DNA from: Rhodococcus sp. Z13
GTDB lineage: Bacteria > Actinomycetota > Actinomycetes > Mycobacteriales > Mycobacteriaceae
DNA: 64,000 nucleotides
Reading direction: 5' to 3'
Assembly (NCBI RefSeq): GCF_025837095.1
Contig: NZ_CP107551.1
Span: 2,660,668 to 2,724,667 of the forward strand
Shown here piece by piece: positions 23,971 through 28,523 of this stretch. Both the position numbers and the translations under genes were made by a program. Positions within the stretch are counted from its first letter, which is position 1; each line of letters begins with the position of its first letter. The notes beneath the pieces are model-generated. The model saw only the letters and a program-made list of their open reading frames with translations. It was not told where the DNA came from and did not search any database.

Positions 23971-25743
23971 TCAGTCGATCTGAAGGATCAACCTGCTCTC
24001 CGGCTCGGTCGACAACGGGACCGCGTCGCGCTGCAGCAGCCACGACGCGATGGTGCGGAACAACGGTGCCGCGGACTGCCCGCCGCTGCCGTCGGAACTG
24101 CGGGTCGGTGCGTCGAGCATGATCCCGACGACGTAGCGGGGATCGTCGGCGGGGGCGATCCCCGCGAAGGTGATCCAGTACTCCGAGTTCGAGTAGCACT
24201 TGCAGTTCGGATCGATCTGCTGGGCGGTGCCGGTCTTGCCGGAGATCTGGTAGCCCTCGATGGCGGCGCCGGTGCCGGTGCCGCGCTGGTTGCCCGTGTC
24301 GTCCTGGACGACGGAGCGGAACATGTCGCGGACGGTCGCGGCGGTCTGCGGGCTGATCACCCGGATCGGATCCGGGACGGCGGTCTCGGTGCGGGACCCG
24401 TCCGGCCCGATCGTGGCCCGCACGATCCGCGGCGGGATGCGTTCGCCGTCGTTGGCGATGGTCTGGTAGATCGCCGTCATCTGCAGCAGGGTCATCGACA
24501 GGCCCTGGCCGATCGGCAGGTTCGCGAAGGTGCCGCCCGACCACTGTTCGCGGCTGGGCAGCAGACCGGCGGACTCGCCGGGCAGGCCCACCTCGGTGCG
24601 CTGCCCGAGGCCGAACAGGTCCAGCATCTGGGCGAAGCGGTCCTCACCGATGCGCTGGGCGAGCATCAGGGTGCCGACGTTCGACGACTTCCCGAACACA
24701 CCGGTGGTGGTGTAGGGCACGACGCCGTGGTCCCAGGCGTCCTTGACGGTCGCGCCGGCCATGGTGATGCTGCCGGGCACCTGCAGCACCTCGTCGGGGG
24801 TGGTCAGGCCGTCCTCGATGGCCGCCGCCGCGGTGATGATCTTGTTGACGGAGCCGGGTTCGAACGGTGAGCTGACGGCGAGATTGCCCATCTCCGCGTC
24901 CGGCGGGTTGTTGGCCACGCCGATCGACGGGTCGAAGGTGCCGTCGTTGGACATGGCGAGGACCTCGCCGGTCAGCGCGTCGAGCACCACGGCCGAGGCG
25001 CTCCTCGCCCCGGACAGGTCCTTGGCGCGCTGCACCTCCTGCTGCACGTGGTACTGCAGGTCGTTGTCGATGGTCAGCTCGACCGACGAGCCGTCGACGG
25101 CGGGTTGCCGGTCGCGCCAGCTGCCGGGGATCACGGCGCCGTCGGAGCCGCGGTCGTAGGTGGACGAGCCGTCGGTGCCGGCGAGGATCGCGTCCATCGA
25201 CGCCTCGAGGCCGATCAGGCCGTGGCCGTCCCAGCCGGTCGCGCCGACGATGTTCGCCGCGAGGGAGCCGCCGGGATACAGGCGGATGTCCTGACGTTCG
25301 GTGCCGACCTTGTCGTATTCGTCGACGATCTCCGCGGCCACCCCGGGGTCGACGCCGCGCGCGAGGTACACGAACGTCTCGTCGCTCTCGAGCAGGTCGA
25401 GCAGATCCTCCTTGGGCGCCGCGGCGCCGAGCGCGTCGTGGATGGCGGTCGCGACGCCGTCGAGATACTCCGGGACCGTGGGCAGGGAGGGATCCTTCGC
25501 GCGTTCCTCCTCGAGTTCCTTGCGGACCCGCACCGGCTGGAATGTCAGTGCCTTCGCCTCCATCGTGTAGGCGAGGGGGTTGCCGTTGCGGTCGGCGATG
25601 GTGCCGCGCGTCGCGGGTTCGACGAGGCGGGTGGTGCGCTGGCTCGCGGCCTCCGCGGACAGGCTCGGTGCCTGCACGAGCTGGACCGACAGCAGCTGCA
25701 GCACGGCGAGGCCGAGCGCACCGAACATCACGGCCCGACCCAC
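23971..25743 (-). CDS. pbpB: Class B penicillin-binding protein PbpB (FtsI), N-terminus broken
   Basis: The septal transpeptidase partner of FtsW. Active-site motifs are intact: EPGSVNKI (SxxK), KSSNVGT (SxN) and SGKTGTAQ (KTG), and the pedestal domain begins TRGTIADRNGNPLAY. The first start codon in this frame is GTG 25743, which would leave the protein with a bare transmembrane helix. In-frame codons continue upstream to about 25866 and encode a basic, Arg/Pro-rich cytoplasmic tail (TTTRSGKRDRTGFPYRNR) without any start codon. The expected coupled GTG (25871, overlapping the upstream stop) is one base out of frame. The true gene probably runs to 25871. Confidence 0.93.
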   Translation of the reverse strand: MGRAVMFGALGLAVLQLLSVQLVQAPSLSAEAASQRTTRLVEPATRGTIADRNGNPLAYTMEAKALTFQPVRVRKELEEERAKDPSLPTVPEYLDGVATAIHDALGAAAPKEDLLDLLESDETFVYLARGVDPGVAAEIVDEYDKVGTERQDIRLYPGGSLAANIVGATGWDGHGLIGLEASMDAILAGTDGSSTYDRGSDGAVIPGSWRDRQPAVDGSSVELTIDNDLQYHVQQEVQRAKDLSGARSASAVVLDALTGEVLAMSNDGTFDPSIGVANNPPDAEMGNLAVSSPFEPGSVNKIITAAAAIEDGLTTPDEVLQVPGSITMAGATVKDAWDHGVVPYTTTGVFGKSSNVGTLMLAQRIGEDRFAQMLDLFGLGQRTEVGLPGESAGLLPSREQWSGGTFANLPIGQGLSMTLLQMTAIYQTIANDGERIPPRIVRATIGPDGSRTETAVPDPIRVISPQTAATVRDMFRSVVQDDTGNQRGTGTGAAIEGYQISGKTGTAQQIDPNCKCYSNSEYWITFAGIAPADDPRYVVGIMLDAPTRSSDGSGGQSAAPLFRTIASWLLQRDAVPLSTEPESRLILQID

Positions 25744-25867
25744 CCGGTTGCGGTAGGGGAACCCCGTCCTGTCGCGCTTGCCGGAGCGGGTGGTGGTGCG
25801 TGCACGGACGCCGCGCGGCGCGGGGGCGGGTCGCCTCCGCGGTGCGCGGCGGGGGTGGAGCGATCGG

Positions 25868-26683
25868 TCACCGAAGTCCGTCCTCGGGTTCCGGCGGCAC
25901 GGTCTGTCCGGGGGCGATGCTGCGGGGCGCCTCGGGTTGCGGCAGTTCGCTCACGATCGTCGATTGTTCCGCGACCGGCGCCGCCGGTGCGGGAGCCGGG
26001 CCCTCCGGCGTGGCGCCGGGCTCCGGCGCCGGGGTCTGCCCCTCTTCGACGGTGGATGCGGCGCGCCGGCCGTCGTCGCCGACGGACCGCGGCCGCGGCT
26101 GTCCCTCCTGCACGTCCTCGCGGACGTCCTCGAGGGGGCGCGGGCTCTCCGCGCCGGGGCTGCCGGCCAGCGGGGTCTGGATCCGGGCGTCGGCGCGGGC
26201 CGGCGGATCGAGCGGCGCGGGCGGTGCGCCCTGGGCGGGCACGGGATCGCCCACGACCTGCACCGAGCCGTCCTCGGCGACGACAAGGCGGGCGACCTGA
26301 CCGGCGGGGATCATGCCGAGCCGGGCCGCGGCGAGCGCGAGGGCCGGAGCGGAGTTGCCGGTTTCCACGTCGCGCTGCAGCACGGCGCGTTTCTGGGTGA
26401 GGCTCTCGTTGTAGGCGCGGGCCGCGCTGAGTTCGTAGGAGTCCTCCGTGGCGCGGGTGGTGAGCAGCAGCGTCACCGCCATGCCCACTCCCAGCAGCGC
26501 GATGATGGTGGCCACGAAGGGGATCCGGGTGCGCACCCGCCCGCCGCCGAGCCGGCGGCCCCGCGTCTCGGTCGGCGACAGGCCGAGCTGGGCGGCCCGC
26601 TGCGAACGGCGCTGGTAGGCACGTTGTGCTGCTGTCGATCGACCGGGCTGCCGACGCTGCGAAGGTGGCACCTTGACGGTCAT
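25868..26683 (-). CDS. ftsL: FtsL-like septum formation protein (Rv2164c position)
   Basis: A 271-residue bitopic protein: basic cytoplasmic N-terminus, one transmembrane helix (about residues 54-76, IPFVATIIALLGVGMAV), a short coiled coil (YNESLTQKRAVLQRDV), then a long Pro/Ala/Glu-rich extracytoplasmic tail. This is the FtsL-type layout, and the gene sits between rsmH and pbpB where Rv2164c lies. The ATG has a strong AGGAGG 6-8 nt upstream that overlaps the rsmH stop. Division role is inferred from position and topology. Confidence 0.85.
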   Translation of the reverse strand: MTVKVPPSQRRQPGRSTAAQRAYQRRSQRAAQLGLSPTETRGRRLGGGRVRTRIPFVATIIALLGVGMAVTLLLTTRATEDSYELSAARAYNESLTQKRAVLQRDVETGNSAPALALAAARLGMIPAGQVARLVVAEDGSVQVVGDPVPAQGAPPAPLDPPARADARIQTPLAGSPGAESPRPLEDVREDVQEGQPRPRSVGDDGRRAASTVEEGQTPAPEPGATPEGPAPAPAAPVAEQSTIVSELPQPEAPRSIAPGQTVPPEPEDGLR

Positions 26684-26686
26684 CGG

Positions 26687-27736
26687 TTACCTCCTGGCGA
26701 TTCGTTCTGCAGCACGCAGGCGGACGGGTGCCGAACGTGGATTGACCTCGATCTCGTGGTCGTCGGCCCGTTCCGCACCGCGGGTGAGGATCCGCAGCTC
26801 GGGGCCCATTCCGGGCAGTTCGACCGGGAGACCTTCGGGGCTGCGGGATTTCGCGCGCGGAGTGAGTTCCTGTTTGACGACCTTGTCCTCCAGCGACTGG
26901 TAGGACATGAACACGACGCGGCCGCCCACCGCGAGCGCGTCGAGGGCGTCGGGGATCGCCGCGCGCAGCGAGTCCAGCTCGGCGTTGACCTCCACGCGCA
27001 GGGCCTGGAAGGTGCGTTTGGCGGGATGCCCGCCGGTGCGGCGGGTGGCGGCGGGGATCGTGCGGTACAGCAGTTCGACCAGCTCACCGCTGGTGCGGAA
27101 GGGCTGCTTGGCGCGGGTGCGCACGATCTCCGAGGCGATCTTCCCGGCGAAGCGTTCCTCGCCGTAGGTACTCAGGATACGGGCGAGATCGCCGTGGCTG
27201 TAGGTGTTGAGCACGTCCGCGGCGGTGATGCCCGTGGTGGGGTCCATCCGCATGTCGAGCGGGGCGTCCTTGGAGTACGCGAAGCCGCGGTCGGCCTCGT
27301 CGAGCTGCATGGACGACACTCCGAGGTCGAACAGGACGGCGTGGACCGAGCCCACCCGGTCGAGGCCGATGCTCTCGAGGGCGTCGGCGATGCCGTCGTA
27401 GCGGGTGTGCACGAAGTCGGTGCGGCCGGCGAACCGGGCGAGACGACGCTGTGCGATGGCCAGCGCGTCGGGATCGCGGTCGAGACCGACGAGACGCAGA
27501 CCGGGATAGGTCTCGAGGAAGTGTTCGGAGTGGCCGCCGAGGCCGAGGGTGGCGTCGACGTAGACCGCACCCTCGCCGCCGGGTCCGACGGCCTCGATCG
27601 CGGGCCCGAGGATCTCGACCGCGCGGTCGAGCATGACAGGGACATGACCGAACTCCTGCGAATCCTGCGGAGAGTCCGTACCGGTCTCCGCGGCCTCACC
27701 TGCGCCGGGGACCGAATCGTCCTCGCCGTCCACCAT
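26687..27736 (-). CDS. rsmH: 16S rRNA m4C1402 methyltransferase
   Basis: A 349-residue SAM-dependent N4-methyltransferase (MraW). Motif [33 protein letters not shown], the [20 protein letters not shown] signature and [15 protein letters not shown] are all visible. It methylates C1402 in the ribosomal P site and is always near mraZ. The ATG follows GGAGGA by 2-4 nt. The C-terminus (AAERIARR) overlaps the ribosome-binding site of the ftsL-like gene. Confidence 0.97.
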
Positions 27737-28029: not shown

Positions 28030-28461
28030 TTACAAGATGTCGCGCAGTGCTTCGTCTCTCGCTTCCGAGAAGTCCTCCTCGTGTTCGGCGAGGTAGGTCT
28101 CCCACCTCTCCGCGTCCCAGATCTCGAGGTACTTGACCGAGCCGATCACCACGCAGTCCTTGGTCAGCCCGGCGTACCTGCGGTGCGCCGCGGTCAGAGT
28201 GATCCGGCCCTGAGCATCGGGACGCTGTTCCTCCGTCCCGGAGGCGAGACTGCGCAGGAACGCGCGCGCCTGCGGATTGCTCCGTGAAGCACTGGCGGCG
28301 CGTTCGGCGAGCGCGGCGAACTCGTCGCGAGGGAACACGGTGAGGCTGTGATCCTGCCCCTTCGTGATCATCAACCCTCCCGCCAGTTCGTCTCGGTATT
28401 TGGCCGGCAGCGTGAGCCGGCCTTTGTCGTCCAGCTTGGGAGTGTAGGTACCGAGGAACAC
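28030..28461 (-). CDS. mraZ: Transcriptional regulator MraZ
   Basis: A 143-residue protein with two AbrB-like SWIM halves, each with the DNA-binding signature ([20 protein letters not shown] near the N-terminus, and [18 protein letters not shown]). MraZ forms ring-shaped oligomers that bind tandem TGGGN boxes and repress the dcw promoter. The GTG at 28461 gives the canonical FLGTYTPK start and has GGGGAGG about 8 nt upstream; the 16-residue extension to 28509 overlaps the leader. Its operator lies at 28524-28548. Confidence 0.97.
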
Positions 28462-28523
28462 TCTCGGCGCCTCCCCGCTGCCGGACGGATGCTTTCCGCG
28501 GCGTGACACCTCGCCCCGCCGTG

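Follow-up and report, generated by a model that had tools for sequence, protein, structure and literature searches.

Gene order and the pbpB reading frame

In the sequence of this Rhodococcus genome, the start codon and the body of pbpB (ftsI), the gene for a septal class B transpeptidase, lie in different reading frames. The gene lies in the window, by which we mean the whole 64,000-nucleotide stretch that was analyzed (G000:C1:2660668-2724667), itself part of a 4.53 Mb single-contig chromosome. On the minus strand, the dcw genes run in the order mraZ (28030-28509), mraW (26687-27736), an ftsL-like gene (25868-26683), pbpB, murE, and murF. These are the names we take to apply from position and family knowledge, with Pfam checks made for pbpB and murF only. 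The ftsL-like gene immediately upstream of pbpB is an ORF of 271 aa that was named from its position and one hydrophobic segment, and a Pfam search returned no match for it.

The readable portion of pbpB (23971-25743, minus strand) is a 590 aa ORF that begins at GTG 25743, the first canonical start in its frame, and its catalytic part is intact. Pfam recovered the Transpeptidase (PF00905, E 1.3e-80) and PBP_dimer (PF03717, E 3.5e-13) domains, and the SxxK, SxN, and KTG catalytic motifs are present as SVNK at residue 298, SSN at 353, and KTG at 503. The gene was the single best match within its own genome, the next paralogues being 28-32% identical; pbpB is single-copy, and apart from the N-terminus its body is intact. 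In its gene order, GTGA overlap with ftsL, domains, and catalytic motifs, it resembles the pbpB/ftsI of actinobacterial dcw clusters, but the copy in the window is one base short near the start, with start and body in different frames.

Upstream of GTG 25743, the pbpB frame stays open for 69 codons, back to TGA 25953-25951, and none of these codons is ATG, GTG, TTG, CTG, ATT, ATC, or ATA. The preliminary description had also read this frame as open and lacking a start, and direct reading of the sequence agrees, but the length that it gave, about 43 codons, has to be replaced by 69. The ancestral pbpB start is the GTG at 25869-25871 (minus strand), which has GAGGA about nine bases upstream. As had been reported and as we read directly, this GTG overlaps the ftsL-like stop as GTGA and is offset by one base from the pbpB frame. 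The stretch encoding the basic cytoplasmic tail of PbpB (25744-25850, minus strand) still carries its coding signal in the pbpB frame and is severed from the start.

Position of the frame break

Comparison with relatives shows how unusual this arrangement is. The pbpB junction is in frame in 28 of 28 Rhodococcus loci (drawn from two collections that overlap in species, and so counted as loci and not as species), with the GTG 71-82 codons ahead of a fixed motif; the window alone is out. In all 28, an in-frame start places a cytoplasmic tail ahead of the membrane helix, and such a start is absent from pbpB in the window. An in-frame GTG was also found upstream in 15 further, more distant Rhodococcus-group loci. 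The earlier proposal that GTG 25871 becomes the pbpB start once a single base is corrected is upheld by the 28 in-frame junctions.

Two C5 runs had been put forward as the site of the missing base, and both exist as described. At the first (25851-25855, minus strand) the window reads CGCTCCACCCCC-GCCG, whereas DNA alignment of the junction gives six C in CH91 and likewise in R. gordoniae, G006, and G013, the closest relatives. The N-termini of relatives match the pbpB frame of the window, in the close clade from residue 6-7 onward, with scores of 65-107 over all tested, compared with 30-41 for the same N-termini against the frame of GTG 25871. The frame preferred by the codon model changes from that of GTG 25871 to that of pbpB somewhere between about 25860 and 25800, and past the break GC3 stands at 0.89 for the pbpB frame versus 0.69 for the GTG frame. 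Because the relatives have C6 at 25851-25855 and align to the pbpB frame from residue 6-7, we place the break in this run, and the second run (25822-25826) was rejected as its site. Judged from these alignments, the pbpB break is one genome's departure from a conserved start and not a chance pattern of ORFs. Since neither the codon bias nor the amino acid similarity of the tail has decayed, the change is either recent or not present in the cell.

A very stable GC hairpin is predicted at 25803-25857 (minus strand), at the start of pbpB, where it covers the C5 run and sits just behind it. The predicted energy is -39.1 kcal/mol over 82 nt (z -3.45 in one estimate and -3.2 in another), and none of 60 random dcw segments reached z -3. 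Relatives show no predicted hairpin of such strength, the structure being weak or absent in them.

Frame breaks across the genome

The frequency of such breaks was surveyed by tblastn over 1.14 Mb of this genome and the syntenic 1.14 Mb of the relative G006, using codon-model genes and about 697 orthologs. Eight rows were returned, which reduce to six breaks in this genome, as one gene appeared twice and one row had G006 as the broken copy. The break in pbpB comes in addition to these six; it was missed by tblastn because the tail is too short. The reverse comparison, from the side of G006, gave seven rows, some of them spurious and at least one arising where it is this genome that has the broken copy. 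Across the roughly 697 orthologs, the break rate is not clearly above that of G006, a comparison that does not separate error from mutation. With six breaks plus pbpB, a grossly error-ridden assembly is unsupported as the cause.

The six other breaks consist of a change from C4 to C3 (twice), a change from C4 to C5 (once), a two-base loss of CG (once), and short tandem duplications (twice). None of them lies inside the window, and none hits a gene that is obviously essential. The survey also turned up one clear nonsense break.

Outside the window, near contig positions 2785290 and 2785920, a WYL-type regulator and a DinB-like gene are divergent neighbours. Each carries its own small frame-breaking indel, the two being about 640 bases apart, and their G006 orthologs are intact. 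This double break may represent either a functional pair that was lost or errors in the sequence that cluster at this spot.

Origin of the missing base

The pbpB break is probably a one-base homopolymer under-call beside the very stable GC hairpin. Base-calling slips are expected next to a structure of this kind. The true run would be C6, six to seven codons into pbpB, with one C dropped by base-calling or assembly; the pbpB of the cell would start at GTG 25871, with the ftsL overlap that every relative has, and its product would be an ordinary full-length PbpB that includes the basic cytoplasmic tail. Where the break lies, that relatives lack it, and that coding signal persists in the pbpB frame are observations; that the missing C is technical is our inference. 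Between an error and a recent mutation, error is the more likely on grounds of prior plausibility: pbpB is a single-copy essential gene, the break falls within its first seven codons, and a stable GC hairpin lies on the run. Selection against a break so early in pbpB ought to be strong; the gene belongs to the essential set of M. tuberculosis, M. smegmatis, and M. abscessus (PMC9170245).

An error is further supported by three of the six other breaks in the genome, which likewise alter a short C run by one base. Against it, pbpB is the only obviously essential gene among those broken, and the assembly is one contig with a reported completeness of 99.99%. As with the homopolymer indel errors familiar from assembled high-GC genomes, the change is of one base in a C run, adjoins a GC hairpin, and occurs in one genome only; the survey gave no clear excess of frame breaks over G006. 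Should the break be an artefact, it is a warning for annotation, as pipelines would call an essential drug-target enzyme about 43 residues short or a pseudogene.

The five-C run may instead reflect a genuine and recent one-base deletion in the strain, which we consider unlikely but well worth weighing. Translation would then start at GTG 25871, pass through 47 out-of-frame codons (25728-25871, minus strand) to the TGA at 25730-25728, and reinitiate at an in-frame pbpB ATG (25728-25726) that overlaps this stop as TGATG (25726-25730, minus strand), directly before the membrane helix. The predicted reinitiation product begins MFGALGLAVLQLL, which is the membrane helix itself, so this PbpB would lack the basic tail; some further product may come from GTG 25743 or from occasional slippage. 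The position of the in-frame ATG, immediately ahead of the helix, favours a deletion, and in many prokaryotes overlaps of the TGATG type support termination-reinitiation (PMC6728339). The overlap at 25730-25726 is like those described there in that a TGA overlaps an in-frame ATG; it differs in that the rescue would be accidental, with a frame-shifted 5' end upstream in place of a gene. However, CH91 and G006 have no TGATG, and on this comparison the overlap in the window is probably fortuitous.

A real deletion is nevertheless not absurd, because NucS of M. smegmatis leaves indels of 1-2 bases unrepaired (PMC11551767) and, among 5977 M. tuberculosis isolates, 28.4% of the essential genes carry an indel at least once (PMC8339072). 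That the assembly is not grossly error-laden also speaks for it. The change resembles the homopolymer frameshift indels and phase variation of actinobacteria (PMC8339072, PMC11898584) in being a one-base indel of a G/C run in a lineage where NucS does not repair indels, but it is unlike them in that the run is only five to six bases long and the gene is essential. The essentiality of pbpB in relatives argues against a deletion, as do the lack of decay in the tail and the nature of the product, which would be missing the positively charged tail responsible for membrane orientation. The corresponding cytoplasmic tail of E. coli PBP3 has 23 residues (PMC4038516), and in the literature we found no test of the need for the tail in actinobacterial PbpB. 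If the five-C allele is real, it would provide a natural test of whether division in mycolic-acid bacteria needs the cytoplasmic tail of PbpB, and would also test how far homopolymer indels reach into essential genes.

Improbable in our estimate is a further version in which the five-C allele is real and acts as a reversible one-base contingency switch on division, the essential transpeptidase being made through slippage on the C run and/or reinitiation at TGATG. Were this true, a reversible one-base indel would decide how much PbpB is made, or whether it has its cytoplasmic tail.

Slippage as a standing means of control, in which the ribosome or RNA polymerase would slip one base at C5 with the aid of the hairpin and the dose of PbpB would depend on it, had been offered in the preliminary description and is very improbable. 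A CCC in the P site is able to re-pair one base back, and the stable predicted hairpin could serve as a downstream stimulatory structure for -1 frameshifting, but relatives have this hairpin only in weak form or not at all, and the frame offset is found in 0 of the 28. The zero-frame codons are ACC CCC GCC and do not form a tandem slippery heptamer (X XXY YYZ), as only the P-site CCC re-pairs, and a run of five bases is short for polymerase slippage. With the break in no relative checked, a run of only five C, and no such heptamer, slippage-dependent control of pbpB is unsupported.

Finally, the scarcely credible reading that pbpB normally starts at GTG 25743 and that the open frame upstream is meaningless was rejected: this GTG is the first canonical in-frame start, but it lies 35 codons before the fixed motif versus 71-82 for the in-frame GTG of all 28 relatives, it has no Shine-Dalgarno-like sequence close by, and the tail is conserved as protein. 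The relatives speak against a shared short N-terminus, each having its in-frame GTG further upstream.

A putative lepA start codon outside the window

A second gene without an evident start was found outside the window. In lepA (EF4), near contig positions 2836940-2836990 on the minus strand, there is no in-frame ATG, GTG, or TTG before the GTPase motif. Fifteen of 18 Rhodococcus genomes carry AGGAGCACGACATC (AGGAGCCCGACATC in two), with a Shine-Dalgarno-like AGGAG six bases ahead of the ATC, and the remaining three have TTG at the equivalent position. Upstream GTG or ATG codons are not kept in frame among the Rhodococcus genomes. Since the pattern is genus-wide, the missing lepA start was rejected as proof of systematic error. 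The shared sequence suggests AUC (Ile) as the conserved start of lepA in Rhodococcus, and this putative start is a better lead than the pbpB break.
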